A stretch of DNA of 64,000 nucleotides from Astropecten irregularis (taxonomy: Eukaryota > Echinodermata > Asteroidea > Paxillosida > Astropectinidae): NCBI GenBank assembly GCA_963971285.1, contig OZ020244.1, positions 9,238,001-9,302,000 of the forward strand. Reading direction: 5' to 3'. Made by a program: the position numbers and the translations under genes. The notes beneath the pieces were generated by a model. It worked only from the letters and a program-made list of their open reading frames with translations. It searched no databases and was not told the origin of the DNA. This document shows, piece after piece, positions 21,705 through 59,444 of this stretch (positions are counted from its first letter, which is position 1; every line of letters starts with the position of its first letter).

Positions 21705-21880
21705 TAAGATCAAAAATTATTTTCTGTCGTTGTTTTACTAATTTCTTGATAAAGTACACCATTTCAGGCAGAACAATTGTGATGGTATCTGCCAGCACCA
21801 TCTTTATACCCTGTAAGTAATAGGTAAATATGTGAACATTTCTGTTTTGATTTTCCCTACTAAAGTATGATACAACTCCT
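21705..21880 (-). repeat. Interspersed repeat family R1, copy 1 (partial)
   Basis: On the minus strand this matches the other R1 copies: a C-A-A-A-A-C-A-G-A-A-A-T box, then ACAGGGTATAAAGATGGTGCTGG, a CCGCCTGAAATGG-like box and a run ending near TTTTTGATC. It covers about the first half of the about 350-bp family. Confidence 0.65.
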
Positions 21881-26046: not shown

Positions 26047-26225
26047 CTTAAAGGTAGTAGGCCTATCATACTTTGGTAAGAAGGCAAAACAGAAATTTTC
26101 ACAGATTTACATATAACTTACAGGGTATGAAGATGAAGATGGTTGTGGTAGAAACATACCGTTAAAATGTTTCCGCCTGAAATGCTGTATTTATCCAGAA
26201 AAGAGTAAAACGACGACCGAAAATC
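26047..26225 (+). repeat. Interspersed repeat family R1, copy 2 (partial)
   Basis: Contains ACAGAAATTTTCACAGATTT, ACAGGGTATGAAGATG, GGTAGAAACATACC and TTTCCGCCTGAAATG as in the copies at 42125 and 44756. Confidence 0.7.
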
Positions 26226-32836: not shown

Positions 32837-34607
32837 TAGTCTAGATTGCTAGACGTAGTTATCGTACCCGCCACCACGAGAGGGCGTATCATGACAATCC
32901 GCTAGCGACGCACGAGTGCACGACTACTAACTTGGACTTCGATAACTACGTCTAGACGAACTGCTATTATTTCCCCCCCGAAAACGGGGGGAAACCAGTG
33001 CGCTTGCGCGATATTGTTGAATAATTTGCGCTTCGCGCACGCGTACACACATCACGAAAATGCACAATAGCCAGGTAGCTCACTTGTTCTTCCACTGGCT
33101 GGAAGTTCCTGGGCCTGTAGGCGGGAGGATTGGTGCGGTGTGTACGTAACCGGGCTCGCCTCGTACTCGTAGGCCTACGCGTACGGTGAGGCGGGGAGCT
33201 ACGGACCGGGACGGCGGCCGGGCATGGTCTTAGCCTTCGGAGAAAACATGGCCCACATGTGTCAGTCAAGTCCCATTAATACTTGTGCACAATCAATTTA
33301 ATAATGATGGTCGTCGGTGAAATTCTTCCCCGGCAATTTTTTACACGTACTTGGGTTAATATGCATGTTGAAAACATAAGGCTTTTCAGAATTATTCACA
33401 AAATGTTTTTGAGTTGACGTAATGTTTTTGAGTTGACGTGATGTTTGCGAGTTGTCGCAATGTTTGCGAGTTGACGTAATGTTTGCGAGTTCAGACGCAA
33501 TGTTTGCGAGTTGATGCAATGTTTGCGAGTTGAGGCAATGTTTGCGAGTTGAGGCAATGTTTGCGAGTTGAGGCAATTAATGTTTGCGAGTTGAGGCAAA
33601 GTGTTTGCAAGTTGACACAATGTTTGCGAGTTGACGCAATGTTTTTGACAAAAGGATTTCGGGGCATGAACGATGAAACAATTTCGATCTGTTCCTAGCT
33701 CTATGTTTGAGGGACCGAAAAGATTTCCACATGAATACACAAAATATTATTTTTAAACACAAAAATATTTTGAGGCCATGAAATGATTTTCATGTATGAC
33801 AAGAAATTGTCTCTATAGGCTTTCCCGCTCCGCTCGAAAATCCCCCCCTCCCCCCCAAAAATGCAATGGGGACCGGGTGTCTGACTCAGTCAACTTGCAG
33901 GCCGTGCGGTCTCACATAAAAAATACTACACGAACGTCCGTGCGTGGATGGACCGCACTGGTTATCACGGGCCCATGCCTCGGGCTGAATGCGTCGCAAG
34001 CCCCCGGCCTACGCGCTATGTCTGCACCGGTGGTAATTTACTACCACCGGTGCAGACAGCGCGTGGGCCGGGGGCTTGGTAATGCACCCGCAGCATGGGT
34101 TTGTGGTTTGTGCCTACCGATCATATATCGAGCTTCATTTTTTTCTTGTACATACAGTTTTCATACATGGTTTTACCATGGAAATTCCTTCACGGTTTTA
34201 CAAAACTTCGTGAAGTACAATATACCTGTACATGTCATGTATACCTCCGGTTTTTTTGTTTATATATCTATTATATGGTGTACATTGTACATGTACATGT
34301 GTGTATGTACTACTACTAGTACTGTACAGTAAATTACATGCAGTGCATTATAGACGGTGCGAGGTAAGTCAGGGGACTAGACATATGAATATGCATTGAT
34401 TGACCTAATTATGCATGATATATTATGCATACGTCATATGATTAGGCACGGTAGGTGCGCGCGCATACAGTAAATAATAGCAGTTCGTCTAGACGTAGTT
34501 ATCGAAGTCCAAGTTAGTAGTCGTGCTCTCGTGCGTCGCTAGCGGATTGTCATGATACGCCCTCTCGTGGTGGCGGGTACGATAACTACGTCTAGCAATC
34601 TAGACTA
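32837..34607. mobile_element. Fold-back TIR transposon, copy 2 (complete, inverted relative to copy 1)
   Basis: Same ends (TAGTCTAGATTGCTAGAC) and about 137-bp self-folding terminal repeats as copy 1, with a different perfect 9-bp duplication CAGCCTCCG (32828-32836 and 34608-34616). At 1771 bp it is shorter because it has one array block and lacks the nested element. It contains the GC-rich tail on the left and the CATACGTCAT-type AT-rich head on the right, so orientation is opposite to copy 1. Two complete copies with different clean TSDs prove a transposing family. Confidence 0.9.
33405..33645 (-). repeat. 19-bp tandem repeats in fold-back copy 2
   Basis: On the plus strand the unit reads TGTTTGCGAGTTGACGCAA (19 bp), about 12 copies with GAGGCAA and GACGTAA variants. 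It is the reverse complement of the copy 1 array. Confidence 0.85.
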
Positions 34608-35340
34608 CAGCCTCCGCCTTAAAATGGGTGCATTCTCTTGCCAATACTAAACCAAATCCCGTGGATTCACCCATAGTGCAAATCATACTGAGCGGTAGAC
34701 GTCAACTCCACAAGCCTCCGGTCCACAAAGAACCAATTTCAATTCCAACGGTCAAAAGAATTATATACAAATTTGGGGGTCCTAACAATGACTTAATGGA
34801 TCTTAGAATAGCTTGCTACGTTTCGTTACAATTTTCCTTGCTTTTCAGACATGACGAAATGTCCCAAACTCAAAGCTAGTCATATTTCTGAATTGCCAGA
34901 GGGGCAAGGGCTATCAATTTTCATACCGAGATCCAAAACAGATGTTTTTAGAGATGGTTCAACAGCAATAATTTCCATCACTCACGATGACTACTCTCCA
35001 ATCTCCCTTTTAAAGTTGTATCTGTCTAGATGTAACACTAAATTTGGAGAAGATGTATTCATTTTTACCCCTTTGTCTTACCACTCTAAACAGAAAATTC
35101 ATGTTCCGCTTAAGAATAAGCCTCTAAGTTATTCCAGGTGTCGTGAGCTATTCCTTGATGCTTTGGGAAAAATAGGAATTCCGAACCCTAAAGCGTACGG
35201 GTTGCATAGTCTACGGTCTGGAGGGGCCACTCATTCAGCCAATAAAGGTGTTCCGGAAGATCTTATCATGCAGCACGGTCGATGGAAAACTGTCTCTGCC
35301 AAAAACAGATATGTCTAATTAGATTTGGGAAAAAGGTTGT

Positions 35341-37796: not shown

Positions 37797-39031
37797 ATGA
37801 CTAGTAGAGTTGATCGTTATAAAGCAAGGCCAGATATTGATAAATTTAATGACATGTGCAGAATTATTTACAATGGAGGAACATGTAATATATCAAGAAA
37901 GTCACCAGTGTATGCATTGAAACATGGTCTGGGTCACATACAGAAACGAACAAAAACTGAACCAGCAGTCATAAGATATCCAAGGTTTTCATTGACCAAA
38001 TGTCCAGAGAAATATTACCACAGTATATTACAACTGTTTCTTCCATATCGTGTTGATATTCAACTGAAGCCATCACAGTTTCAGAATTATGAACAATTTT
38101 ATAGGAATGGTTCTGTTAGTCTTAATAATAAAATGAAATCTGTAAGTGTTGGTAGTTGAAAGTAATCGGTTTAAATATGAGAAGGATGCTGAGGCTCTTG
38201 AAGCAGCTAAACAATATGTGAACATGGTATGCAGGAAGATGCATGGGCTTTAATTTCCCCAATATCTGAGCAGGAAAGACTGGAATGTGAAGCAGAGCGT
38301 GAGCCAGTATTATCAGAAGATGATGATTTTGATATTCCTGACCTACAATCTGACAAAAAAGACAAAGTGTGTAATATTGAACCACATTCAGTGAAAATAT
38401 CAAAGCAAGATGCACTAAGTTTATTGAGGTCATTAAATGTACAGCAAAGGGAAGTGTTTAATAAGATTCGGGACTGGTGTTTACAGAAAGTACAAGGCAA
38501 AAACCCTGAACCATTTCATGTATTTATCACTGGTGGAGCTGGAACTGGGAAAAGTCATTTGATAAAATCAATACATTATGAAGCAACAAGACTCTTTACA
38601 AGAATTGTTCATAATCCTGATAATGTGTCTGTAATGATAACTGCACCTACTGGAGTTGCTGCTTTCAATATAAATGGGAGTACAATTCATAGTGCGTTGT
38701 CAATCCCCACAGATGCACGTTTTCCATACCAACCGCTTGGTGAAGAGAAATTGAATACTTTGAAGAATGAATTGCAAGATCTTCAGATTGTTATTATTGA
38801 TGAAATATCAATGGTTGATCATAAAATGTTGTGTTACATTCATGGACGTCTGCGTCAGATTTAGCAAACACGTGATCTCAAGCCATTTGGAAAAGTGAGC
38901 ATTTTAGCTGTTGGTGATTTTTATCAATTGCCCCCTGTCAAAGGGAAATCATTGTATCAGAGAGATATTACAGTAGATCTATGGAATGATTGTTTCAAGA
39001 AAGTAGAGTTGATGGAAATTATGAGAGAAAG
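37797..39031 (+). pseudogene. Helentron helicase, N-terminal half
   Basis: 37797-38159 encodes the pre-helicase region (RVDRYKARPDIDKFNDMCRI ... RYPRFSLTKCPEKYYHSILQ). 38229-38864 encodes the helicase with Walker A GGAGTGKS at residues 102-109, [19 protein letters not shown] (residues 139-157) and Walker [10 protein letters not shown] (189-197). One TAG follows GRLRQI at 38862-38864, then the frame continues as [16 protein letters not shown] and VELMEIMRE up to the insertion. A frame change lies near 38150-38230. PIF1/RRM3-type 5'-3' helicase; it would unwind DNA in rolling-circle transposition. Confidence 0.75.
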
Positions 39032-39150
39032 CACCCGATACTCACAAACTATGTCAGTAACTACTGTCAAAAGGGACAAATTTCGCATCAGTCTTACCGA
39101 CATAGATTACAATCTGTATAATCTGGGTTAAGATCAGTGTCAGTAACAAC

Positions 39151-39387
39151 CATTGATCTCCATTAGAAAGACTGGATAGGACACGCGCACGCAGATGCAT
39201 TGCACGGATTCAAAAACGCGTGGACAGCTGGAGAGCGGGTTTGGGCAGTGTTAATTGTATGGAAGGCCTACGTGCGCATGCGTGCTGGACACTTCAAACC
39301 CCTTGTCAAACCCGCTGATCAAGCGCGCACGCGGTTACAAGATGGAGGGCGCTGTGTCCTATCCAGTCTTTCTAATGGAGATCAATG
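39151..39387. mobile_element. 237-bp MITE in the left TIR (8-bp TSD)
   Basis: The ends CATTGATCTCCATTAGAAAG and its inverse form an arm of about 34 bp that runs on through ACTGGATAGGACAC. They are flanked by perfect duplications GTAACAAC (39143-39150 and 39388-39395). The 8-bp duplication suggests hAT or a similar superfamily. The empty site is preserved in the right arm of the big element. Confidence 0.85.
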
Positions 39388-39612
39388 GTAACAACTGATA
39401 CTGAGGGTAATCTTTATTCAGTCCTATGCAGTCTGTGGGTTGCTTTGGACAGAGAGCGAGCATGCGCAATTAATCCTTCGTGGATCCCTGGCCGCTGCCT
39501 AGCCTGCATGCAACAATGCGCCAATGCAATTTGTACGTAAAAATGTATTCCGGTCGTGTCCATTTTTATGTTGAATACAGAGATTTTGTAAGGCTTTCTA
39601 CGACTCTTGATC

Positions 39613-39631
39613 ATGATTGATCGATTAAATG
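39613..39631 (+). CDS. Candidate first exon of the gene carried by the 16.2-kb element
   Basis: ATG followed by six codons (MIDRLN plus one base) and a strong donor G|GTAAGT at 39632. It lies inside the terminal repeat, so the repeat may supply the promoter. The link to later exons is inferred from strand and order only. Confidence 0.3.
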
Positions 39632-39905
39632 GTAAGTTATTTCCAAAATATAACTGTTTTGGCGTGTAAATGTGAAACACTGGGGTTATGATACGCGTTT
39701 TTGTTTTGTTTTTGTCCTGTTTTGGGTTTGTTGTTTTGGGGGAAATTGGAGGGATGGGGTCACCTAGCCAGGGCCTAACGTTAGTGCTTCATCTATTTCG
39801 TGAATAACTGAAATTAGGCTCTTCATTAGTCATGTCAGCCTACATTACTACAGTATACATCCATATTGAGGAGTACTAGGCCTATAATAGTAGGCCCTAT
39901 ATGGC

Positions 39906-40097
39906 AGTGTATATTTTGCCGGCGCCGGCAATCTTCCTGCTGCAAACGCTATTTTGGCTTTTTGCCTTTCCCATTGGCTAATGATTGCAGTAGGCCTACT
40001 AGAATGTAGGCCTACCTCCGGCAAAATAACCTTTAGAGAAAGAAGACCTGCTTTGCCAACGAGAAGAATGCATTACGGAGCCGGCAAAATATACACT
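39906..40097. mobile_element. MITE with GCCGGC-containing TIRs
   Basis: The ends AGTGTATATTTTGCCGGC and GCCGGCAAAATATACACT form an 18-bp perfect inverted repeat. No clear target duplication. No coding potential beyond a short chance frame. Confidence 0.65.
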
Positions 40098-40781
40098 TCC
40101 TTTTTATATCGTCAGTGTACCTGTTTTCGAGTTTAGTTTTCAAGGGTTGACCTTAAGTTATACGTCACTATTACCACCATGCTATTACTTAGCGACGTGC
40201 AAGCCTGTACCACACAACCAGTTGATTTGTTGTGTGTACGGTATATGCTCCACTGCAAGCCAAACTACAGTGCCAACACTCAACAGTTTACTTCTTTATG
40301 TAACTATTTGTCTTGCTTGGAATAAATGCTTACACCCTCGAAAACCGGTACATCGAGGATAGTACATGTAGTAGGCCTGCTGGTACTGTAACGTTAGGCC
40401 CTAGGCATATAGGGCGTTACCGGAGATTAGTACACTCAGGGTAGCTGGTACCCAGCTTCTACAGTAAACTAACTCACCTGAATACGACTCTGTCATGGGT
40501 CAGGTACCAGCTAACCTTAGTGCACTAAACTGAGGTAGTAACCCCCATATCTGCATATAGGCCTAGTAGGCCTTCTAAGTAGTAGTAGGCCAACTAGTTT
40601 CTATCTAGCTAGCACTTTGTAGCAGTATAGGCTAGACCCCTACTATAGGCCTACTACTAGTTGCGATGATCGTTACCATTGGTCTGACCATATCAGACAA
40701 TTAAAGGGTTACGATAATCGGAACTATAGCTAGTAGTACTAGTAGTAGGTGGCCTATACTGCTAGTACTTTAGTAGGCCTG

Positions 40782-40928
40782 GGGTCGATTTCACTAACGC
40801 TTTGCGATCATCGTAAATCCCAAATCCATCGCTAAACGGAAAATTGCTATGCAAAGTAGCGATCGATTTTCTATTTAGCGATTGATTTGGGCTTTACAAT
40901 GATCGCAAAGCGTTGGTGAAATCAGCCC
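40782..40928. mobile_element. Harbinger-type MITE, CTG target
   Basis: The ends GGGTCGATTTCACTAACG and its near-inverse CGTTGGTGAAATCAGCCC, with inverted arms of about 38 bp including TTTGCGATCAT. Flanked by CTG (40779-40781 and 40929-40931). The 3-bp duplication and GGG ends match the Harbinger element at 42510. Confidence 0.8.
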
Positions 40929-40931
40929 CTG

Positions 40932-41051
40932 GGGTCGATTTCACCAAACTCATCGCAATTCGTTGCAGCTGCACGAGAAGTTGTATGCATATGATGGTTA
41001 TCCTTCGTAACTCAAGTTATGATCAATCGTAGGGCTTCCTGAAATCAGCCC
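40932..41051. mobile_element. Second Harbinger-type MITE, adjacent, sharing the CTG
   Basis: Starts GGGTCGATTTCACCAAA, ends TGAAATCAGCCC, flanked by CTG at 40929-40931 and 41052-41054. It sits directly against the previous MITE, sharing its right target copy, as if one had inserted at the duplicated target of the other. Confidence 0.75.
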
Positions 41052-41370
41052 CTGTAACTATGCCAATATTAAAACAGGGTCCAGATGCACCACTATGCTC
41101 AGATCTGGGCCCTGTTTATGTAGGCCTTAGATGCAAATTATGGGTCTGTAAAAAAAGAAATAGTATTTGACGGTTGTCCTACTACAAAAATACAAGATTT
41201 TGTTCAGGACCAAATTAAGAAAGGTCGCCTAAAATTTCACCTGCATTGAATTGCATGGGGTTGCATATCTGAAAAGTGCATAAATACAGAATGTTTTATT
41301 ATTTCACACCTTCAGAACCTGCAGATATTTCAGTACCCTTACATTGCCTATTTTGGTATTTTTCTTGCAG

Positions 41371-42130
41371 ATGCCTAAATGTAAGCTGGAAAAAACTTCA
41401 CACTCCATACAAATGTAACTTGCAGTTAGCAAGGCTAATTGTTTCTGCAAAGAGGAAGTGTTAACGGGCAGATGTCTTTAAAGACATTGAAGACACAGCT
41501 ACCGGTACATGTACATGTACGAATCTGAAGCAAAGGTAATTTTTCATGCGGTGCTCTGTTGTTTTTAGTTTGAGTTTGCCTAATTTTAACTGCATGAGCC
41601 ATCATTCCCATGCGATTAGAAAGTTAAATCATTTTGTATGTAGTCAGGTTTGAGTCAGGTTTTTCTCACATCTCGGATGTCCGATTGTTTGCCATGAATT
41701 TAACCCTAGTTCATTCCATATACTCAAAGGTCACTGAGTCCACACACAAGATGGACACATGGGAACATATGGGATGAAGCAGGTCCCTCCAGATGTGACA
41801 GCCACATGTCAAGGAGGTTCAAGGGATGTACTAGCTGGGAGGAGAAAAATGCGGACAACGTGATTTGCTGCATGGATGGCAATGATGAGACAGGTTTCCA
41901 TCAAATGTGGTAGGTTCTCATTAAAACACTTTTTTCATTGAGCATAAACTTTTTTTTAGCTGCAAATGCCTATTTGGAGAATGCAGTTCTGCTTATAATT
42001 GACTTTTGCTTTCTTTCACAACTACAAAGGCTACATATACTTGAAGTTTGTGTTTCACTTGGTTTACAAAGCTTAAATTGTATTTTTTTTTTAGGTGTCT
42101 GAGTTGTATTAAACAGATAAACAGATAGGC
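41371..42130 (+). CDS. Candidate exons of an unrecognised Cys/His-rich gene inside the 16.2-kb element
   Basis: Three segments have splice-like borders. 41371-41535 follows TTTTTCTTGCAG and ends AAAG|GTAATT, with CLNVSWKKLHTPYKCNLQLA in one frame and a stop before its end. 41751-41909 is open over about 52 codons (SHMSRRFKGCTSWEEKNADN, CCMDGNDETGFHQMW) and ends at GTAGGT. The segment from 42095 follows a TTTTTTTTAG acceptor and joins in phase to give W-C-L-S-C-I-K. The combined C-C ... F-H ... W-C-x2-C pattern recalls the end of a PHD-like finger, but key residues do not all fit. It is an inferred gene model; R1 repeat DNA follows directly. Confidence 0.35.
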
Positions 42131-42485
42131 CTATTTGAAAGGGATTGGTAAAATACCCAAACAGAAATATTCACAGATTTGTATATGTTTTCAGGGTATG
42201 AAGATGGTGCTGGTAGAAACATACCATTAAAATAATTTCGCTTGAGTTGGTGTATTTATCCAGAAATGAGTAAAACAGACCAAAAACGGTTTTATAACTT
42301 TGGGTATTAAAGATCAAAACCATTCTTTATGTTTTATAAGAAAAATTAAGTCAGGTTTTTCTCGCGACTCGGATGTCCGATTGAGCTGAAATTTTCACAG
42401 GGTTATCATTTCATGTACATGCTGTACCAGACAAAGTTTGAGTGTTGTTCTGTGACCTTTACCAATCATGTATTATACCTTTCAA
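42125..42485 (+). repeat. Interspersed repeat family R1, copy 3 (near full length)
   Basis: Runs from GGGATTGGTAAAATACCC through TTTTCTCGCGACTCGGATGT and CCGATTGAGC to TGTTCTGTGACCTTTACC and ATCATGTATTATACC. Matches 44756-45115 and the minus-strand copy 51420-51720. A short partial copy (TTTTTCTCACATCTCGGATG) lies at about 41640-41700. No coding potential or TIR is evident; possibly a SINE-like or old non-autonomous element. Confidence 0.75.
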
Positions 42486-42744
42486 TTGAATCACTCTGTG
42501 TTTGACCTGGGGTGGATTGCAATAAGCGGTCTTAAAGCTGTCTATGTGCCTTAGCCGGTCTTAAATGGCTTGGAGTTAGTTGGTCTATAAGTTAGACCAT
42601 TGCAATGAAGCAGTCTTAGCGCTTAGCCAGTCTTTAAAGAGTTAGCCTGCTTGGAGCAGGCTTAAAACTGTCTTTAATTATATAATTGTTGGGAATTTTC
42701 CTAATACTTGCTTGCATGATGTTGACATAACTTTTGTTTCCAAA

Positions 42745-43918
42745 ATGGCGTTGCAATTATTAGTTGTTGAAGATTTGAACAGAAGAGCCTTGCGTAGACA
42801 TAGAGTATTCAGGGACAGACTGAATCCTCTGGATAAATATGATGATGATGAGTTATACCGAAAATATAGATTTCCAAGAAATGCAATCTTGGAATTGACA
42901 GATTTGATTGCACCGAATTTGAATCAGACAAACAAAAACCACGCAGTTCCCCCGATACTGCAGATGTGCACTGCTTTGAGATTTTACGCTACCGGTGTTA
43001 TTCACAACGTATCCGGTGATATGTCAGGTAGGAGAAAACGGCTTCACATTATTTAAAAAAAAGAATATTTATGGGATTAAATTCAAAGACGTGACAAATT
43101 TTACAAACATATCTTTCAAACATAAATTATGATAAGAATTTATTTATGTTTGCATTAAATTTTAATGCAGGGATGCACGAGTCCACGGCATGCAGAATAG
43201 TGCGAAGAGTATCATTGGCTCTGCAGAGTAAATTGAGAGACTTTGTCACGTTCCCCAACCAAGACAGAAGTCTAAGGGCGCAGAAGGTGGGGTTCTACAA
43301 CATAGCAGGGTTCCCTAATGTGATCGGAGCAATAGATGGGACACACATAAGAATCCAAGGCCCAAGTGATCAAGAGTTTCTCTACGTTAACCGGAAAGGA
43401 TATCTATCATAGCTTAAACATTCAAGTAATATGTGACAGCCAAATGAAGTTCACAAATTGTGTATTTCGCTGGCCTGGGTCCACTCATGACTCCCGAATC
43501 TTTCGTGAAAGTGCCATCAAGACAGTCTTTGACGAAGGTCAAGTTGACGGTTACCTTCTTGGCGACAAAGGCTACCGCTCTATCTCCGTACCTTCTTACA
43601 CCATACATCAACCCTCAAAGCGACGAGCAGCGTAGATACAATCGTAAACATGTATCAACGCGATGCATTGTAGAGAGAACTATCGGGGCATGGAAGCGAC
43701 GGTTCAGAGCAATGCATGAGGAGACAAGAATGGCACCAGATAGAACCTGTGCAGTGGTTGCAGCTACAATCATTCTTCACAATATCGCCAGACAGCACCG
43801 CCTTCCTGATTTCGACGACGAGGAGGATGTCCTTGAAGAGGCTATCGAAGAGGTTTTTAATGGACCTGTTGCAGCTGAAGGGCGAGCAGTGCGAAATATG
43901 ATCAGCCATGAACTCTAA
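42745..43918 (+). pseudogene. Harbinger transposase, two exons, frameshifted
   Basis: Exon 1 (42745-43027) begins MALQLLVVEDLNRRALRRHR and ends at a CAG|GTAGGA donor. Exon 2 begins 43169 after TTTTAATGCAG and joins in frame (S-G-M-H-E-S-T-A-C-R). The DDE triad is readable: GAIDGTHIRI, WPGSTHDSRIF and ERTIGAWKRRF, with LLGDKGYR before the last. A 4-base gain near 43400 (ATCTATCAT for ATCAT) and a 1-base shift near 43575 break the frame. The remaining frame runs to MISHEL and a stop at 43918. The product would cut and join DNA at CTG/TNA-type targets together with the Myb-like partner. Confidence 0.8.
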
Positions 43919-44755
43919 AATGATGGGTAACTTAGTACAGCATTTTTAATGTGTCTTTCTTTGCAGATCATAAATGTTTGCTTTGTAAATAATAAGTGAC
44001 AAGGCAGATGTCTAAGGTTGTGTTTGCTCCTTGGTTATTATCAATGCACTCACTCACAAATACATGTAATTAAAATGATTAACAAAAAGAGTTGTACTTC
44101 TCAAGTATTATTTTATTTCATGCTGAGAACAAGATTGAAAATGTCAAGTCTTCAAACAGTTTGCATCACCTTTGAAACTAATAACACAAGTTTTAGGGCT
44201 ACGAATTAAATTATTGCTCATTAAATAATAAATAACAATAAATTAAACAATCATCAAATTTACAAATTGTACAAAACTGGCAAAGTTAAAAAAAGAAGAA
44301 GAAGATTGGCAGCCATATCAGTAAGTTACATTAATTCTTTGTAATTACTATGTACATGCAGATTAAATTATAATGTAATTCCAAATATTATACGGTAGGC
44401 CTTTATGTTATTGTATATAATTTTCCTTGCTTATTGTAATGCTTAAATAATAAACAATCCTTTTTGGTTTATGGTTTATGGTTTTTAGCTTAAGTGTTGG
44501 CTATTCAAGATTGCTGCCAAACAAGTGAAGCACAACCAGAATGTTCACTGTCCTTTATATTTTTATCATAAGAGAAATCATTTTATTTTTGATATGCATA
44601 TTTGACACACACAAACAGGAGAGTTCATGTGGCATTTCTACCTTCAACTTTGTAAATAATTATCAATTAAACCAACATGAATCTTTTTGAAAATGTTTTT
44701 AGTAATCTTGTCAACATATTGTCGAATGAAAAACAACAGTGAACAAAAGTTCAAT

Positions 44756-45115
44756 TAAAGGTACAATACAGGATTGGTAACATTCCCAAACAGAAATGTT
44801 CACAGACATAAATTTCAGGGTATAAAAATGGTGCTGGTAGAAACATACTATTCAAATATTTCCGCCTGAAATGGAATATTTATCCAGAAATTGGTAAAAC
44901 GAAGACCGAAAAAAGTTTTGATATCGGGGTAAGATCGAAATAATTTTGTATGTAGTAAGACAAATTGAGTTGGTTTTTCACTATTTTCTCGGGACTCAGA
45001 TGTCTGATTGAGCTCAAATTTTGACAGATATATTATTTCATGTACATGTTTGATCAGACAAAGTGTGGATACTGTTCTGTGACCTTTACACCAATCATAT
45101 ATTATATCTTTAAGT
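44756..45115 (+). repeat. Interspersed repeat family R1, copy 4, inside the Harbinger element
   Basis: Begins AGGTACAATACAGGATTGG and follows the same order as copy 3 to CACCAATCATATATTATATC. It lies between the transposase gene and the last exon of the Myb-like gene. Confidence 0.75.
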
Positions 45116-45186
45116 TTTTATTCTTCTACGATTATGACCTTTGTTGCCAGGACAGCAATGTCCATTTGTACCTTTTGCTGTTGCAA

Positions 45187-47042
45187 TTAAAGTAGTTGTG
45201 TCTCTTCTTTGAGTTTGTCTTCCTCCAACTGCATTTTATAAATTTTCGCTTTAGCAAGGGAAATCCCCCACCTCAGATACTCATCATACAGGCCACTGCT
45301 TTGACATCTTTTAGTACTAGTCTTGGCACGTGTTGGTGTGTTTGTCTCTGTGGAACTACCTGGTATGCCTGGAGGCCGTGCTGCTGCAGATTCCTCATTT
45401 GCCTCAGAATCTTCCTGGCTTTCACCGAAGATGGCAGTGTCTGCTCTCTTACCTAAATAAAAACATCAAACATCTATGTGTTACCTACATTTTTATACAA
45501 ACTCTTTGCTCACAGAAGTTCAAGTTTAGGATAAGGCTAATTATTTCTGATTGATATACTATTCTTGTTGATGACTTAATTGCAGGAATTTCTGTACAGT
45601 CTGAAATCAATTTGATGGTCACAGAAACTGTATGTCAATACTGCTGATACTGTTGAATTTTCCAAGTGGTCGTAGAAGTGTTGGATGATGGGATGCAGAT
45701 GGTTTTCTATATAGGCCTTTACAACTTTAAAGTACCAGATTATTACAAGCCAGCAATCAAATGACAATTGATTTATGCGGGCACAATATGAAAGAAATAA
45801 TGAATGTTTCGCATTCGTACGGAATGGTAAAAATAATTTCATGAGCTGACAGAGGCTTCACTGTCACCTTATGAAATTATTTTTACCATTCTATGAATGC
45901 GAAACATTCATTATTTGTATAATGTCTACTCACCCCTATCAACTCCATCAAGACCTGTTTCAATCCCTGATGAGATTCCACAGAACAGCTCACTCTCTGT
46001 ACCTCCGAAAATCTCAGACACGAGACGAGAGGACTCCGGCAATGTTGAAGGTGGCGCCCCACCAGTAGGTGGATTCTTAATCTAGTGAAAAACAAAATAA
46101 AAATCCCACCCAACTATAAACTTCAATCAAGCACAAATAATACTTAGCATTTCCTGTGGGTTTTAAATGATGTCCAATTAGACCTTATGATGTGTAGACC
46201 TTTTTAATAAATCATTTATTTGGAATCTGCAGTTCTGCACCAAAATAGATTGAATCAGGAAACCAGTCTTCATGAAGGCCCTAATCTCTTTCAATTTTGT
46301 TTTTAATTTAGGTGCATCAAACGCCAGACGGATATGGTATAGGCTTAGGCCATGTTATGTGGCGCCGTAGGTCCATACAAATATGACTTGTCAATGCCTC
46401 CATCAAGTGTTCCTTTAATTCCAACAAATACTGCATTACCCATGTGCGCTGCATGCTGTAGATGTCTGAATTATATAATCTGTAACCTATGGAAGCTCTA
46501 GGCTAGTGAATCGAAGTCTGTGATCGGCCTAGTATAAAGTACTACTAGTAGGGCCTTAATATCAATTCATGTAGGCCTAGGTCCTATCCCCACAAAAAAT
46601 TACAAACACACAGATCTAACATGTCACATGAGACGAGTACTAACTAAGTATGAGTACATGTTTCCGGTAATCCGATGGTTTTTATTTAATGGAGGCTGGT
46701 AAATTTTGATAAATGTTGATTACTTAATCAATGTTACCTTCCCAACATCTTTTTTCGTATAGCCACAAGATTCTTCCATTTCTTCTTCACTTCTTCTCGG
46801 TTTCTTACAACTGCGGGATTTATGGCATTAACCGCCGTCGTGATTTCGTCCCACGCTGCCCGCTTTTCCTGTAGCGTAACTGCATTAGTCAGTTGTGATT
46901 GTAGTTTGTCTTGATTCACTGAGTAGCCCTCAATTAGTGCCAGCTTTTCTGCCTCGGTGAAGGCTGGGCGGCGAGGTTTCGAAGAGATTTTTCCCCTTTT
47001 GTTTTCCGAACTTTCCATTTCTAAGTGGAAGCCGTTCAGCAA
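45187..47042 (-). CDS. Harbinger Myb/SANT-like DNA-binding protein, three exons
   Basis: Exon 1 (47042-46738) encodes RRPAFTEAEKLALIEGYSVN, VVRNREEVKKKWKNLVAIRK: a trihelix Myb-like domain of the sort carried by Harbinger elements. Exon 2 (46081-45934) reads NPPTGGAPPSTLPESSRLVS and GISSGIETGLDGVD, the usual linker. Exon 3 (45452-45187) has the C-terminal KAKIYKMQLEEDKLKEETQL coiled-coil-like tail and a TAA. Splice sites are GT/AG. The phase between exons 1 and 2 does not match exactly (2 versus 0), so either a small indel has occurred or the junction is misread. Its role is to bind the element ends and bring the transposase to the nucleus. Confidence 0.65.
45793..45916. repeat. Long perfect-like hairpin inside the Harbinger Myb gene intron
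   Basis: Arms of about 47 bp (AATAATGAATGTTTCGCATTC ... at 45793-45842 and its inverse at 45870-45916) flank a 27-base loop. It sits just beyond the exon 2 donor. It may be a small MITE or a regulatory hairpin. Confidence 0.7.
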
Positions 47043-47333
47043 ATTATGTGCACTATGTAGAAGTCCGTAATCACGTAAAGCATGCAGTATTAATACGGTT
47101 AACCGGCCACAGACTGCACACTGTACGTGGAAATTTTTCGGTAACTATGGGCTAACAAATGTTTGTTCGTGAATCATTACTCCACAACGGACTAAAACAA
47201 GACTGGCTTATTGCAATGGGCTAACTTCGTGGTCTTACTCAAGACCGGCTAAGAGAAAAGTCGGCTTTAGTCTATATCCTTAAGCCCACCATTTAAGACC
47301 GTTTTATTGCAATCCGCCCCTGATCTCTTGCAG

Positions 47334-47795
47334 ACTTCATCATCATCAGGACTGCCATGTCAGGACTGCCATGGCAATGTTTATTGCAGTCATCCTGATC
47401 CAGCATACAGAGTCTCAGTCAGGAGCGCAGCTCTTCAGCGCTGGTGGGGCCAGTATCTCTCTTGAGCTGGTCCACTACGATGTCAGACTCAGTGTCCAGT
47501 GAACTTCAGATGTCACTGCGGTCACTTGCTGATCTTCTGTGATACTCATGATATGCCCAAGACCGACATTCATCATGTGACTAAACCACAAGACATCTAT
47601 TTTCTGTACCCAGCATATGGGGGTAGTGCATATAGCAACCATACAGCGACTTACAGTAGTATCGACTCCACCGTTGACACGAACAGTGACCTGTTGAGCC
47701 AGTTGCTCAGGGCAGGACATCCACACACAGACCACGCTTGTCCTTGTCCAAGGTACTTGAATTGGGGCAGAGCTTCACAAGTTCCCCCAGTATAA
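47334..47795 (+). CDS. Candidate Cys/His-rich last exon inside the 16.2-kb element
   Basis: Follows the acceptor CTCTTGCAG. One frame gives TSSSSGLPCQDCHGNVYCSH, then ALQRWWGQYLS, an in-frame TGA, then AGPLRCQTQCPVNFRCHCGH, LLIFCDTHDMPKTDIHHV and a polar tail ending at 47795. The pattern C-x2-C-x5-C-x-H and C-x3-C-x5-C-x-C-x5/6-C-x2-H looks like zinc ribbons. A partial copy of CTCTTCAGCGCTGGTG-x-GGCCAGTAT recurs at 50621-50645. I cannot name the family; cysteine clusters beside transposases (the CxC type of KDZ elements) are one comparison worth testing. AATAAA follows at about 47800. Confidence 0.4.
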
Positions 47796-50700
47796 CAATA
47801 AATCAGTTGTACTCTTGAATTTCAATGACAGATATGACAAGATTTCACTTGTACACATTTAGTTTGTTCCTGTGTTTTATAATGTCTTGAATGTAATTAT
47901 CATGTTGTCTGTACTGCTGTTTACCTGAGATATAATAAATTAAATGAAATGAAAAATGTGAAGCAGATACCTCGTTCAGTAGCTGCTGAGCCTGCCCTAT
48001 GTGAACTCTTCATTTGAATCAACCAAACTAGACAGGCAGATCGAGTTACATGAATGTGATTGACAATTTCTTTCTTATGAGAACTGTTACTTATTATACA
48101 CAATATCAAGGTGATGGGGAAATGTTATTAAATGTTGTTATACTATGAGAGTAGAATGCTCTCAATATGAACATTATATCAATTTGAAAGCCATTGGTTT
48201 GGAGGATATTTAGAAAAAGGAAGGTATTTTGTGCATGACCCTGGAATGGCCCCCTAATGGTCGATCTAGGGCAGTTATATTTATACCTTTTTGTTTTGAC
48301 TTTCAAAACATATATGAAAGTAAGACCCAGGTGGCAACCCATCCCCCTTCCCCCCAGGTCTGAGGATCGCATCTGTCTATGACACTGCTTACCAAACTCC
48401 TAATTAGCAGTTTTCTTTTGACTGCCAAATACCTCTGTTAAGGAAGTTAACATTTTCCTTCTTATTCTGATTTTGATGGCAACCACAATATGAAGATTAT
48501 AGAACACATAATAATGTTCATGTGTACTACATGTCTACTTATTTTTGTGAAACAATAGATCTGTGGATGACAACAGCTAAATTGTATTAATGGGCAGTAG
48601 CTGCACTATACATTATATCTTTCATCATTGTTTTCACTTCAGCAGGTCTTGATACAACCCTGCTGAGTATGTATTGGCCTGAATTTGACAGAAATTCATC
48701 CATATGCAAGATGTAAGAGTATGGACTGTTCCAGCTTTGCTCGTAAGCCCCGCCCACATGTGTGTTTTACATACCACTGGTGAGTGGTGACTTAGTTTGA
48801 CTGAGGCTTTTGTGGTCACCTGATTAAAATGTGTTTTCCAATTGGTCAATGCGTACAAATTGATTGACAGGCCGGAAGGGTCCATTAATTGATAACATTC
48901 ATATTGCTGTTCAAAAATTAACTTACAATCTAAATGATTGAAAATGCGTGTAGGCCTTTTTGGATTCTAGTGTAGAATAACTCTGATAATTTCGTCTTTA
49001 ACTAAGGCTTGTGGTCATGAATCAAGATTTAATCATTAATGTCGTGGCCATCATTCAACATCATGCAGTCTTAAAGTTGAATTTAAAAGTATTTTGTTAT
49101 ATTATGGTATTACGGAACTATACTGGTACATGTATTGAATAAGGAACAATAAAGTTATTTCGGATTTAAACCAGAACATGTATGGTATATGTTTGTGGGT
49201 TTATTTCGCACTCTTTTGGACGGTTGCCCCATTTCGAATTTGAAAATTGGAAATGGGATGGAATTTACATAATTTCATGTCCTACCACACCGACACTCCT
49301 GTCAGATTTGTTACCTTAATCTCTTCGCCACGCACAACTTTCCAATGTAAGCAACTCCAAACCAGGTGAGGTTAAAACGAATAAACTCACTCCCGCGGCC
49401 TTCAATCCCCGCCTTGTCTACTTTTGTGGTAATTACATGTATTATAACCATTGTTTTATTCAATAACAACAATTTATAAGTATCACTGAAAATCTCCAGA
49501 GGTATGGGTATGACTAGTTTTTCGTATCGTAGACCTGCAAAACTTAACCCCAACCCTGCACGCGGTGAGCTGACTGCGGTGGCTTGGAGAAACTGCTGTA
49601 CTCATACGAAATAAAAAGAAGACTGATTCTTTCGTGTTATGCAGCATTTCCGGTTGTTAATTTGACACCCTTTAATTAAAGTAATCAAATTTGTTTATTG
49701 TTGATATTACAGTTGAATAATATCATCTCACAATCGTAACAATAAAGCGCATAAAATAGGCCTATAATCTCGAGCAGTCGAAAAGCAACATTCCTTGCTG
49801 CGGAAAAATGAGAACCACACCTTACATAAACGCGCCGCGGTTATTCACTGAAAAATTGAAAGGAACCTAAAAATAAAAAAAAAAATTTCCATCCTTTCCC
49901 CACTGAAATAGTCACTTTGATAAACTGATAGTATGAATTGCACGTTTTGAGCACTTTTTTACGTGCGAAAATATTTTAATTTCATTTAAATCGATTAAAA
50001 AAATCACGGGAGCAATTATATGTAAATTAGGTCATGCGAGAGGGCGCTAGCATATAGCATCCTTTGGGAATTTTTTCAAGATCTTGTGATTTGAGGGAAA
50101 TTTATGTACGCGGCTGTACGTTGCACATGCGCAGCAATGTACATGTATTCCACTGGGGGCCGCAGAGTAATTGCCGTTGCCTTGTTAACTCTTGAAAATT
50201 TTACTCAAGAGTTGTGCGTCTTGATAATTCTTAGGAATTCTAGGGGCTGTTATGGGAAATAGGTGAAAAACACTAGCCTTTTACAGGTTTTTTCTTAACA
50301 AAGACTAACTTGCATGATTATTTGCAAATACGGCAGAAACTATGACACAGTACACCGTTTTTTTTAGCAGGCTCAAGAAAATCCGTTGCTTTGTTTATTA
50401 GTTTTAGTTACATTTGTACTATTTACAGAAATTTCATTCTAAAAAAATTATAAATGCAGACATTTCCCCCAACATGATTTCAGTTGACAACCACCCCAGT
50501 TGATTTTGTTTGGAGCATAAATTAATGCAGTAGGCAAATTTAACTTGACTTGCACAAAGTCCCATGGTATTAGAACACAAATCCCTATAATTATTCATTA
50601 TTATCTCGAGAATGTTACTCTTCAGCGCTGGTGAGGCCAGTATGATGTATCCATTTATTTAGGGAGATATTATGCATTCTAAAACTAAATGACAACTAGA

Positions 50701-51419
50701 TGCTTGAAATAATTTTACAAATTGTGCAGTGCAGTGTCCTAACATCTCGAGTACAATCTGAGTGAGAGTCCTTTTAGGAATTTCAACAAGTGTTACAGGT
50801 GGCGAATCCGAGTCCTCCAGCACTGATAATGTGTAATTTAGTATAATATTAATGTATTAATTAATAAAAGAATGTAATCCGTGTACACATAAATTGAAAG
50901 AATTTTTTTTTCAACTCTTTATTTCTTCATGACAACCTGCAGTGTAACAGAGCTCATTTTAACCCATATAGTGGCACATGGGGAAGTCCACATGTAAAAA
51001 TTAATTAAAAAAATTAAAATAATTAAAATAAGCCAAAAAATTATAATTTAAAAGCAAAACGTGTAGTCAAACTGTACATCCCAGATAATATTTTTTCTTC
51101 CACTTCATGATAAATTGATAGAAAAATGTAAAAGGCATCAGAGATAATTTACGTTAAATTTGCTTCCTAAAGTATAATATGTCTCAATTGTATTGTGCAA
51201 AACTCTGCCTGCATGCAGAGGGTATATTTTTGAGGAAAATAATTTTTATAAAAATGTATAAAATAACACTTACATAAATATTTTTTCTTTTCCATTGTTT
51301 ATATAAACTGTCTATCAGCTGCATGAACTTACATGTTCTTCAATATGTTGAAATACTCAACCATACAATAATGATTTACCTCAATGAATTATGTTCACAG
51401 TGCTGACTACAATATTATC
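47796..51419. other. Non-coding part of the 16.2-kb element
   Basis: No convincing exon in either strand. Possible poly(A) signals occur near 47800 and 49147 (AATAAAG). The block at 50020-50160 (GTCATGCGAGAGGGCGCTAG, CACATGCGCAGCAATG) is GC-richer and promoter-like but has no attached gene. 50621-50645 is the short duplicate of the Cys-rich exon. Confidence 0.35.
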
Positions 51420-51720
51420 CAACACTGTTTCTGGTTAAATGTGTAATACATGATTAGTAAAGGTCACAGAACAGTACTCACACTTTGTCTGATCCAGTAA
51501 GTACATGAAATAATAAATCTGTCAAAATTTGAGCTCAATCGGACATCGAGTCACGAGAAAATAGCGAAAACCCGACTCATTTTTCTTATGAAACAAAGAA
51601 TGGTTTGATCTTACCAAGAGATCGAAACTGCTTTTGGCATTTGTTTGATTGATTTCTGGATAAATACACCATTTCGAGCGGAACATCCTGTTTGGAAAAG
51701 TTACCAGTACTGTACTTTTA
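51420..51720 (-). repeat. Interspersed repeat family R1, copy 5
   Basis: Reverse complement of the R1 pattern: on the plus strand TAAAGGTCACAGAACAGTAC, GAGCTCAATCGGACATCGAG and TTTCTGGATAAATACACCAT. Confidence 0.75.
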
Positions 51721-53678
51721 ACGGTTAAGCACAAATGAATGTCAACAAAAGTGAGTGTCATCCACAATTATCAGGGCTAATTTTATTCATACAGTATCAA
51801 AGAAAGGAATGTTAATTTTATGGGAGAATTCACACACTGTCACTAACAACAGAAAGGTCACGGTCACAGGTATCCTCATCTTCAGTAACCAGCCATCTTC
51901 TTGCTTAAAGCACTGTACCTGTGGAAATAAGAAATATGGAGAAAAATTAGGGTATGACATTAACAAACAGCGATTCTTAACTGTCATCACAGCTTTAAAG
52001 GACAAGCTGGCGAGCCTTGTGTACATGGTCGCATGTACATGTTTCACGGAACTGAGGCAGCACAAAAAAAGGGATGATATCTACTGGCTTTTTCTCATAA
52101 TAAAACATGACCACGGAACTAGTGGGTTGGGGAATCATGACAGTGTCAACTGCCACCAAGTTTATGAATTACACAATCATTTAAGTTATAAATTCTGTTA
52201 TCTTGTGTTCACTCATGGAATATGGGTGAACACAGCACCGTAGTACCGTACCAAGTATGTATGCGGAATTGCAGGTTGTGCATTTTTTCAATGCCTTGTT
52301 GGATGGAAAGCATGATCATAATCAGAGCAATACACAGCTAGCTGAGCACTGACCAATTAGAATAAAATATTCTTACTTGTATTCACCATATTTTGAAGAC
52401 CACTTTCCAAGACTTTGATTCCACAGTTAACAGGAATCTCAAGTTCTCAACCACTGCACCTATAAAAAAATGATGAAAACAAGACAAGCATGAAAAACAT
52501 GTTAAAGAATGTAATACATTAATTCAAATAAGTCATCTTGGTCAATTACAACACAAATGATAAATTTCAGTTAGTCTAAACATACTAAATGTATGTGCAC
52601 GGTGTACATGGTTGGGAGATCTAAGCCCTAATTCTGGTGGGAACACTTAAAAATCACCTACATGTATTCCCAAAAGAGTTCTAAAACTCTTCATGTTCTC
52701 AGCATTTCTAACAAGTACATGTATCTGGAATGTTGTACTTAATCTGCTGTAACCAAGAAAAGCATGTCAGCCATTCAGTGCAAGTTCACCATTATGTACC
52801 AATGCACTAATGAAATTTCCGGTATGCAGTCTATGATTCATATAATATCTGACCCCCCCCCCCCGCCAAAAATGTCCCTCAACAGCCATGCATAAAACAA
52901 TATCTGTATACATGTACCTTTCCAAACATTTAGGATGTAATTCTCTGATCTTTCTTAAGGAACAAGGTTCTATTGTGAAAACTTAAAAGTACAATTTGAT
53001 ATTGGAAACATTTGTTTAATACTAAAAACTATTCCACATAGTCCCGTACTACACGGTATTACTGTAAGTGATACCATGGAGGAAGGATGAGACCATGCAG
53101 AAAGCAAAGTACATGCACATGTACTATGACTGTGAACCCTTTGTCCAACATGGGAAAATGGACCCAAGGGTTAATACGAGGTGGTCTAATTAATCATTCA
53201 GTGCCAGGGAATACTACTTCATGTACTGGTCACCAGCACAGAAAGAAATGACACTGAACATATTGAAGGTATCGGGATTTCCCCGTTTGAACAATGTAGG
53301 GTTACTAATTAGGACCGTCCCATTGCAACTATAGTCTCCATGATTACTCACTGCTGAATGTGGAGGAAGTGAGAAGGGGTCTAGCACTGTAGTAGACAGG
53401 GTGTAGTATTGTAAGACGATGCCGGATGAAGCACATGGAAGGGATCAGTCTGTGGTTGAAGTTAAGCTGCAGCATCTCCATGAAAATTTACTCACTGATG
53501 AATCTGGAGGAAGTGAGAAGGGATCTTGCACTGTAAGGTTCGACCATTAGCAATGTAGTACATCAAGTATCTGGAGCCAATTATATTTGCATTTTTATTA
53601 CTCCTTATTAACAATTCTGATGATCTGGATATTCTCTTGGTCGCACATCCCACCTTTTGTGTAATGTGAGGTCACTGA
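51721..53678. other. Non-coding part of the 16.2-kb element with one direct repeat
   Basis: A block of about 48 bp (ACTCACTGCTGAATGTGGAG / ACTCACTGATGAATCTGGAG, then GAAGTGAGAAGGG) is repeated at about 53347 and 53490. An open frame of 162 codons at 51755-52243 has no recognisable motif and no splice context. Minus-strand TTATTTCCACAG near 51917 could be an acceptor. Confidence 0.35.
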
Positions 53679-53860
53679 GCTGTTTGACAAAATGGCTGGA
53701 GCGAAAACAGTCACGCCTAACACAATGCGTTGGAATATTGTGCCTACACTGAAATTCTCATGGTAGGCAATACGTCACTTCCCGCGGTGTAAGCTTGCAC
53801 ACTCCAGTGTATTGTGTTATTATGCACAATTGTTTCACTCCAGCCACATTGTCAAGCGGT
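53679..53860. mobile_element. Small TIR element (MITE)
   Basis: Imperfect inverted arms: GTTTGACAAAATGGCTGGAG ... CTAACACAATG on the left and CATTGTGTTATTATGC ... CTCCAGCCACATTGTCAAGC-type sequence on the right. About 180 bp; no sure target duplication. Confidence 0.5.
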
Positions 53861-54849
53861 TCACCGGTATCTGTATGAGTCGACCAGCAGTCCTGGTCAT
53901 GCCAGGTTCTGGATCTAGGCTAACGTGACATGGGATAGCATTTTAAAATGTTGTAGGCCTAATATCACTCATATTTCATCCAAAAAAAGCCGCAGCAGGT
54001 TAGGGCATTTTTGTAAATTCTTAGCCCACACTGCCCCTCTGGTTATAGTCTGGTAACCGGTTTCTACAGTAAAGTAACTCGCCTTAAAATGTACGACTTC
54101 ATGCATCTGTTGGGTTTGGGTACGAGGCTAACCATGGAGCTGAGTAGACTATTTTTTATTAAATGTATACGAATGCCAGGAATCTCGGGTCCAGCCCAGG
54201 CTCTGGCTCAATTTAGTGAATCCGTTCTAAAATAAAAAGGTATAAAAATAGAGGCTTTGGCTGCAGTTCGGAAGTAGGGCCTTGTATTAGGCCTACTAGT
54301 ACTACTAGTTACTAGTTCTAGTACTAGGCCTAGCCCTCGATAGTACATTATATACAAGTAAATAGTAGTACTGTAGGCCCCTACGTTATCTAAGAAGTAG
54401 GAAGGCCTACCGTAGTAGGGCTAGTACTTGACTAGTACTTAGTAGTACTAGTAGTAGGCCTAACTGTTAGTACTCAGTACTGCCTAGCATGCTTAGTAAC
54501 GTTACTACTAACGTTACTAGTACACTAGACACAGGGACCTAAGGCGCTAGTACTACTACTAGTGAGCTGAGCTAAAGCCGTTTTGGAAGGGATAAGCCTA
54601 ACAGGGTTTGGTTTCAGCATTAAAAATGGAAATGCACAACCTATATTTTTAGCATATGGATTACAGAGGCGAAGCTGGAGCATGAGCCAGAGGCGAGGTT
54701 TAGAAAAGGGCCCTAGCATGCATTCCCCAGGCTAGTTTAGTCAGCAACGGAAATATATTTTCACGAAATAGATGAAACACATGACAAAGGCCTAGTAATT
54801 AGTATAATTCAAACCCCAATCCCGGCCTCCAAACAACAAATCAAAATAA
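53861..54849. other. Subterminal non-coding region of the 16.2-kb element
   Basis: Rich in ACTAGTACTAC and TAGGCCT words. A block at about 54043-54125 (TTTCTACAGTAAAGTAACTC) resembles 40450-40520 near the left end (TTCTACAGTAAACTAACTC) in the same orientation, so the two subterminal regions share more than the inverted arms. Confidence 0.4.
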
Positions 54850-55258
54850 CCCAAATATTTCACATTTACACGCCAACACAGTTATATTTTGGAAATAACT
54901 TACCATTTAATCGATCAATAATGATCAAGAGTCGTAGAAAGCCTTACAAAATCTCTGTTTTCAACATAAAAATGGACACGACCGGAATACATTTTTACAT
55001 ACAAATTGCATTGGCGCATTGTTGCATGCAGGCTAGGCAGCGGCCAGGGATCCACGAAGTATTAATTGCGCATGCTCACTCTCTGTCCAAAGCAACCCAC
55101 AGATTGCATAGGACTGAATGGAGATTACCCTCAGTATCAGTAGTTGCTAACACTGATCTTAACCCAGATTATACAGATTGTAATCTATGTCGGTAAGACT
55201 AATGCGAAATGTGTCCCTTTTGACAGTAGTTACTGACACAGTTTGTGAGTATCGGGTG
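54850..55258 (-). repeat. Right terminal inverted repeat of the 16.2-kb element
   Basis: Reverse complement matches the left arm from CACCCGATACTC through ACTGATACTGAGGGTAAT and GGATCCCTGGCCGCTGCCTA to CCAAAATATAACTG. It lacks the MITE present in the left arm, which dates that MITE as a later insertion. Confidence 0.85.
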
Positions 55259-55265
55259 GAGAAAG

Positions 55266-58872: not shown

Positions 58873-59444
58873 TAGTCTAGATTGCTAGACGTAGTTATTG
58901 TACCCGCCACCACGAGTGCACGACTACTAACTTGGACTTCGATAACTACGTCTAGACGAACTGCTATTATTTGACATAATGTTTGCGAGTTGACGCAATG
59001 TTTGCGAGTTGAGGCAATGTTTGCGAGTTGACATAATGTTTGCAAGTTGACGCAATGTTTGCGAGTTGACGCAATGTTTGCGAGTTGACGCAATGTTTGC
59101 GAGTTGAGGCAATGTTTGCGAGTTGAGGCAATGTTTGCGAGTTGAGGCAATGTTTGCGAGTTGAGGCAATTAATGTTTGCGAGTTGAGGCAATGTTTGCG
59201 AGTTGAGGCAATGTTTGCGAGTTGACGCAATGTTTGCGAGTTGACGCAATGTTTGCGAGTTGACGTAATGTTTGCGAGTTGTCGCAATGTTTGCGAGTTG
59301 ACGCAATGTTTTTGACAAAAGGAATTCGGGGGCATGATCGATGAAACAATTTCGATCTGTTCCTAGCTCTATGTTTTGAGGGACCAAAAAGATTTCCACA
59401 TGAATACAAAAAATATAATTTTGATGACATAAAAATATTTTGAG
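58873..59444. mobile_element. Fold-back TIR transposon, copy 3 (truncated)
   Basis: Begins TAGTCTAGATTGCTAGACG like copies 1 and 2, but the left terminal repeat lacks about 33 bp of its centre and the GC-rich tail region is missing: the terminal repeat is followed at once by the tandem array. The right end is replaced by the MITE 59445-59587. No target duplication is found. Confidence 0.8.
58973..59312 (-). repeat. 19-bp tandem repeats in fold-back copy 3
   Basis: About 17 units of TGTTTGCGAGTTGACGCAA with GAGGCAA, GACATAA and GTCGCAA variants, and the same GGCAATTAATGTTTGCGAG irregular unit that occurs in copies 1 and 2. Confidence 0.85.

Follow-up and report, generated by a model that had tools for sequence, protein, structure and literature searches.

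A large, recently active DNA transposon family in Astropecten irregularis, probably non-autonomous and moved in trans

Introduction

Galileo, a member of the P superfamily in Drosophila, has target site duplications (TSDs) of 7 bp, with a few of 8 bp, long terminal inverted repeats (TIRs) and copies lacking a transposase, according to the cited portions of two papers (PMC4168063, PMC3573991). P elements and Pdre2 are described, in the parts of the sources drawn on here, as having 8-bp TSDs and TIRs of 13-31 bp (PMC10983969, PMC7776569). Here we describe a 16.2-kb element in the echinoderm Astropecten irregularis that combines 7-bp TSDs with 413-bp TIRs. It lies at positions 39032-55258 of a 64,000-nucleotide stretch, hereafter the window (assembly GCA_963971285.1, contig OZ020244.1, positions 9,238,001 to 9,302,000, forward strand). 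Non-autonomous DNA transposons are usually short. Our analysis of the element and its relatives makes it quite probable that this is a large DNA transposon that has been active recently, is non-autonomous and is moved in trans, with a P-superfamily transposase as the leading candidate.

A single unit inserted in a Helentron helicase

The element was identified as one 16.2-kb insertion from its inverted ends, a perfect TSD and a rejoined flanking frame. Both ends abut GAGAAAG, and when the flanks are rejoined with one copy of this 7-mer the Pif1-helicase frame of a Helentron reads open through ...LMEIMRERDDMQFAETLNRI.... The helicase halves on either side of the insertion match PF05970 and PF21530 in Pfam. 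An initial annotation had claimed that the unit inserted as one, and these results bear it out. The helicase frame still contains a stop, 167 bases upstream of the 16.2-kb insertion (open reading frame end at 38864), so the Helentron frame was broken independently of it. The boundaries are as follows.

39025-39031, no strand: left TSD, GAGAAAG (sequence reading and copy comparison)
39032-39689, plus strand: left TIR, split by a miniature inverted-repeat transposable element (MITE) (self-alignment and genome arm search)
39151-39387, no strand: nested 237-bp MITE in the left TIR, with 8-bp TSD GTAACAAC at 39143-39150 and 39388-39395; absent from the other arms found
39690-54845, no strand: element interior, about 10.3 kb without the nested Harbinger described below, with no recognised coding frame (Pfam scans and open reading frame comparison)
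54846-55258, minus strand: right TIR, 413 bp (self-alignment and genome arm search)
55259-55265, no strand: right TSD, GAGAAAG (sequence reading and copy comparison)

The inverted ends are about 413 bp long. Positions 39032-39150 and 39390-39689 pair with 55258-54846 (95% and 96% complementary), and with the 237-bp MITE set aside a global alignment of 412 columns holds 18 mismatches. The ends start CACCCGATACTCACAAACTGTGTCAGTAACTACTGTCA... and hold a short inner palindrome, CAGTAACTACTG; the inner arm motif is GTGTCAGTANNTACTGTCA. Within the window the tip CACCCGATACTCACAAACT has only two matches, at the two ends (up to 3 mismatches allowed; expected 0.01).

At least six complete copies in the genome

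The source genome (475.7 Mb) was searched with the 413-bp right arm, and all 15 candidates were scored. The 16 resulting rows comprised both ends of six copies (13 rows, the window left arm falling in two), two ends without a partner arm and a weak relative (C19, 75%). At least six complete copies are present, with the same tips, a common core and different flanks:

C1:9277032-9293258: window copy, 16.2 kb
C15:3222511-3233286: copy C15, 10.8 kb
C10:6224276-6235095: copy C10a, 10.8 kb
C28:6485898-6502927: copy C28, 17.0 kb
C1:9566736-9577517: copy C1b, 10.8 kb
C1:7464126-7474467: copy C1c, 10.3 kb

All six carry perfect 7-bp TSDs, each different (GAGAAAG, GTCTTAT, GTGGGAC, GGAGAAC, TTTTGGG and CATAGGC). 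Six units with distinct perfect 7-bp TSDs and a shared core constitute a transposon family. The initial annotation had named a chance composite as the alternative; this is excluded, since in six complete copies the same core lies between the tips. Its 7-bp duplication proved real in all of them, including the five further copies recovered by searching with the ends, each of which has a duplication of its own.

The two unpaired ends retain only part of the right side of the element, about 3.9 kb in C11 and 1.3 kb in C10b, before other DNA follows. Reading 20 kb from either end revealed no second arm, and both look truncated. A 2-kb core stretch used as a genome query gave 33 rows, nine of which belonged to seven family copies; the other 24 were weak and at most 127 bases long. 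A tip scan of viral contigs, a set from which records of the source genome may be missing, gave no match.

The copies might instead be products of segmental duplication or of virus-like Polinton insertion, the size of about 16 kb and arms of several hundred bp resembling those of Polintons. However, the six copies share tips and differ in both flanks and 7-bp duplications, which refutes either origin for them. The Polinton TSD is given as 6 bp in the cited portion of PMC10045372, and the frames scanned contained no polymerase or integrase match. This explanation is very improbable.

Nested insertions account for much of the size variation

Comparison of the copies resolved the 16.2 kb into an element of about 11.2 kb (11.18 kb once the Harbinger and the left-arm MITE are subtracted), a nested 4.8-kb PIF/Harbinger element and the 237-bp MITE. 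Nested insertions together with a segment of 0.6 kb explain the larger size differences among copies. The window copy contains the following.

40782-40928, no strand: Harbinger-type MITE, 147 bp, TSD CTG at 40779-40781 and 40929-40931 (copy comparison)
42142-42482, no strand: dispersed repeat (self-comparison of the window)
42510-47319, no strand: nested PIF/Harbinger, 4.81 kb, TSD CTG at 42507-42509 and 47320-47322, ends GGGTGGATTGCAATAA / GGGCGGATTGCAATAA (ends by sequence; copy comparison)
42646-43918, plus strand: pieces of the Harbinger DDE_Tnp_4 transposase, a passenger gene (PF13359, E 1.1e-10 and 7.5e-12)
46737-47144, minus strand: Harbinger Myb/SANT-like DNA-binding partner, a passenger gene (PF13873, E 2.2e-13)
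53760-54392, no strand: segment of about 0.6 kb (copy comparison)

The initial annotation had described the element as without a recognisable transposase. This does not stand, as a PIF/Harbinger DDE transposase and its Myb partner lie inside, though within a nested passenger that has its own CTG TSD. Its alternative wording, a new large type or a cargo-carrying derivative, came close in the second part. The stretch 42510-47319 has the marks of PIF/Harbinger: DDE_Tnp_4, a Myb-like partner, a 3-bp TSD and empty sites elsewhere. The exact empty site, GACCTGATCTC, is present in four of the five other copies (C15, C10a, C28 and C1c), and the region is missing in C1b.

As the sole Pfam-recognised transposase inside, the Harbinger could be supposed to move the whole 16-kb unit. 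Yet it is bounded by ends and a 3-bp TSD of its own, while the outer TSDs are 7 bp rather than the 3 bp of PIF/Harbinger, and the precise empty sites in four copies refute it as mover of the outer unit. We find this account hardly credible.

The 237-bp MITE belongs to a family with at least 39 further places in the genome, 84-99% identical (40 of 120 candidates scored). The 147-bp MITE is absent from C15, C10a, C28 and C1c, and the C1b alignment runs through it. Judged by eye rather than by domain scan, C28 carries a 6.2-kb insert whose frames look like gag and integrase, resembling a long terminal repeat retroelement, and C1b a LINE-like insert with a reverse-transcriptase-like frame in addition to a replaced segment. 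The 0.6-kb segment is missing in C15, C10a, C28 and C1c, where matches resume at 54390-54454; it is spanned by the C1b match and covered by C11 from 53902 and by C10b from 53989. Kept in the window copy and C1b and absent from four others, it indicates that at least two sub-lineages moved.

The dispersed repeat at 42142-42482 has relatives at 44771-45111 (inside the Harbinger) and 51437-51671 (inverted), and outside the element at 21709-21847 and 26087-26223. The stretch of about 0.1 kb at 53629-53752 has 20 weak genome relatives (71-85%). By eye it holds an ATG in good context followed by GT, starting like a short exon, and may be a captured first exon or an old repeat.

Recent spread of an old lineage

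Copies C15, C10a, C28 and C1c are 99.0-99.6% identical in pairs over 10.2-10.8 kb, and on the strength of this identity we regard the family as recently active, with a burst of four copies. The window copy is 95.6-95.7% identical to these four, a distance of about 4.3%. C1b is only 88.4-88.5% identical to them overall because one segment (11 of the 44 250-base windows compared) has been replaced; of the 33 windows that lie outside this segment, 31 show a difference of 0-3.6% from C15. A piece of about 10 kb without recognisable genes has thus spread recently in at least four copies, which differ by at most 1%. This raises the question of what lets a transposase acting in trans move such long cargo, and whether the interior contributes.

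When the left and right arms of one young copy are compared, their identity is 96.7-98.5% across the four copies. Comparison from copy to copy gives 98.2-99.8% for left arms and 98.5-99.5% for right arms. The gap is small: some values tie, and one pair of left arms falls slightly below. As arms within a copy are less alike than arms between copies, they differed before the young insertions, and their divergence therefore cannot date an insertion. The initial annotation had judged the window insertion not very recent from its arm divergence. That dating method fails, yet the window copy is indeed older, as seen from its distance to the young copies. The trap is a general one: divergence between the arms of a copy overstates insertion age if the arms of its parent already differed. 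The family itself provides clean insertion markers.

An older relative of the arms was found at C18:16449282-16449454. This 173-bp MITE-like copy is 74-82% identical to the family arms, and its flanking 7-mers agree at six of seven positions. Five further remnants are 79-88% identical to it. The lineage is therefore old in this genome.

Coding capacity of the interior

All six frames of the window element were compared with Pfam and gave Harbinger-type matches only, the weaker rows being other transposase models on the same stretches. The first 9,800 of the 10,776 bases of C15, likewise read in six frames, gave no Pfam match (E limit 10; HMMER filters drop most matches above 0.1). No THAP domain or P-type RNase H-like transposase was found in either scan. 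The longest frame in C15 has 122 codons, which is on the chance scale: when 7.5 kb of the interior of the window copy was shuffled, the longest frames averaged 113 codons. The longest gap-free stretch open in all five aligned copies spans 75 codons. Divergence between the window copy and C15 affects the entire core, at 1.7-10.4% in each window of 250 bases (the last 27 bases apart).

One longer frame lies in the window copy:

51755-52240, plus strand: open frame of 162 codons, not a gene on present evidence (open reading frame shuffles and C15 comparison)

None of 100 shuffles produced a frame as long. The initial annotation had read it as a Cys/His-rich gene, which we reject: C15 does not preserve the frame, a protein search returned 13 candidates of which none reached E 0.001, and a search of PDB sequences found no relative. 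A first exon borne on the TIR, also proposed there, found no support, an ATG preceding the donor-like GTAAGT only in the left arm.

Judged from sequence, the shared core appears to hold no coding frame and the element to be non-autonomous, so that its transposase would be supplied in trans.

Proposed mechanism and source of the transposase

We propose a low-copy family whose members, not counting large nested insertions, measure about 10.3-11.2 kb and move as one piece. A transposase supplied in trans would recognise the two ends and cut and paste the unit, and insertion would proceed by a 7-bp staggered cut made by a DDE-type enzyme acting on the tips. The inner palindrome CAGTAACTACTG is probably a transposase binding site. 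Of six diverged relatives, three show it as CAGTAGTTACTG (two of them copies of one locus) and two others have CAGTACTTACTG and CGGTAGTTACAG; in the last relative it is truncated.

The transposase most likely belongs to the P superfamily. This is favoured because the 7-bp TSD and long TIRs are those of Galileo and because P matches occur in the genome. P-superfamily TSDs are 7 or 8 bp, and all six complete copies have 7 bp. The genome contains at least 87 matches to the P-superfamily RNaseH_N domain (PF21787); six have open frames of 809 codons, five with equal score, and the 2.2 kb upstream of the frame is 99% identical in two of the 809-codon copies. Open frames of 819, 789, 776, 743, 739, 712 and 683 codons, among others, also occur in the P-superfamily families of this genome. 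Membership of the P superfamily is not claimed for the element, which lacks a recognised P transposase of its own.

The 809-codon P family is possibly live. Examples of P matches lie at C1:14487373, C9:7911140, C14:16356354, C19:1448848 and C19:6008117. A dense cluster of P-transposase-like sequences also extends over about 3 Mb at C11:18990731-22091849, with frames mostly short or interrupted.

Possible traces of excision were found in an inverted host duplication at C15:1632039 and C15:1644160, whose arms are 90-96% identical. Each arm carries a scar of two tips, 35 and 42 bp long, in which 26 bases of one tip are fused to 9 or 16 of the other. The 7-mers flanking the scars agree at five of seven positions, and both scars represent one event seen twice. 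The tip fusions are likely an excision scar. For P-element transposase, PMC7776569 places the cut on one strand 17 bases inward from the end; with such an inset cut, remnants of the tips would be unsurprising where elements of the P group excise, which we take as a lead. The same two loci had been considered as a 12.1-kb partner element, but are the arms of the inverted duplication with its scars.

Tip matches of the form CACCC(C/T/G)ATACTCACAAA.. were considered as distant relatives and judged chance resemblances, lying mostly next to GGCTCTTTTCAGAGCC. Among 15 listed tip-like loci, ten sit directly after GGCTCTTTTCAGAGCC (four exact, five with small changes, one degenerate). The tip at these loci matches at 17-18 of 19 bases. 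They were taken as chance because we recognise GGCTCTTTTCAGAGCC as what is presumably the histone 3' stem-loop.

Several points weigh against a non-autonomous element driven by a P-type transposase. In the coding analysis, the last 976 bases of C15 lay outside the Pfam scan, their window counterpart being scanned, and the shared-frame comparison used gap-free columns in five copies, with C1b left out. Changes between the window copy and C15 fall 24, 28 and 37 times at the three codon positions (22 partly overlapping stretches). One 62-codon stretch (C15 2008-2194) has seven of its nine changes at third positions, and the sums without it are 22, 28 and 30. Frame scans could miss a transposase whose gene is split into many small exons or differs by indels from copy to copy, and the interior may still contain a spliced gene. 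That stretch, together with splice-like sites and the donor-like GTAAGT seen by eye in both arms, would suit an autonomous element of a new superfamily with 7-bp TSDs, its transposase or other mobility protein too divergent or intron-split to recognise. The whole 10-kb interior is also retained in four copies at least 99% identical, which is odd for pure ballast; youth alone can explain this preservation. Against an autonomous element stand Pfam matches limited to Harbinger, frames on the chance scale with none above 75 codons shared by five copies, and divergence spread across the core. We consider it unlikely. Doubtful, too, is a transposon type of its own (10 kb, 413-bp TIRs, strict 7-bp TSDs), whose interior would be kept through a functional RNA or small spliced peptides that aid its spread, or through the transposase of an undescribed superfamily.

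The remaining points concern the P superfamily. No autonomous partner was found in an incomplete genome search. By coordinates, none of 33 tip matches (up to 2 mismatches) lies within 99 kb of any listed P match, and the upstream end of one P family, taken from two 809-codon copies, did not match C15. These results leave some room for a different driver of the same non-autonomous element, of hAT, MULE, Dada or unknown type, which overlaps with our explanation in all but the last step. TSDs are 8 bp in hAT and 8-10 bp in MULE elements, however, lengths that do not fit the 7 bp of all six copies. Dada TSDs, at 6-7 bp, would fit, but U6 and U1 Dada elements are without TIRs and Dada sits in small-RNA genes, in the portion of PMC3706591 cited here. 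A non-P driver is thus possible though not favoured, and a P-superfamily transposase acting in trans remains our leading candidate. In our literature search we recognised no description of the same family.

Other features of the window

A 19-bp tandem unit forms three arrays with shared flanking repeats (3101-3680, 33402-33644 and 58978-59311). A LINE-like frame of 1184 codons at 12614-16168 encodes reverse transcriptase and endonuclease and contains DVSSNPGP, which we take to resemble a 2A-type peptide motif. Two open frames at the left edge of the window (326-757 and 1087-1926, minus strand) have no Pfam match. Matches below the curated cut-off to the rve integrase core and the Phage_integrase family were seen at 30642-31520 (minus strand) and 34812-35318 (plus strand), which are perhaps further mobile-element genes.

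Comparison with known systems

The element shares with Polinton/Maverick its size class and arms of several hundred bp. Polintons carry replication genes; the present element differs in its 7-bp TSDs, and no polymerase B or retroviral-type integrase match was found in the frames scanned. PIF/Harbinger is represented by the passenger inside the window copy, with its DDE and Myb genes and TSD CTG, whereas the outer unit has 7-bp TSDs.

The TSD length falls in the 6-7 bp range of Dada. Unlike Dada, the element has 413-bp TIRs, and the window copy, the one whose target is considered here, is inserted in a Helentron-like helicase; ARAGORN and Rfam scans of the window found nothing.

The ends begin with CA, as in zebrafish Pdre2, and P-type transposase matches are present in the same genome. 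Unlike P elements and Pdre2, the element has a TSD of 7 bp and a TIR of 413 bp. Galileo is classed by its THAP/P transposase, none of which was found inside the present element. A further difference is the interior, which in the present family is a long core of about 10 kb, common to the copies and with no recognised genes. The likeness to Galileo lies in the 7-bp TSDs, the long TIRs and the existence of copies without a transposase.

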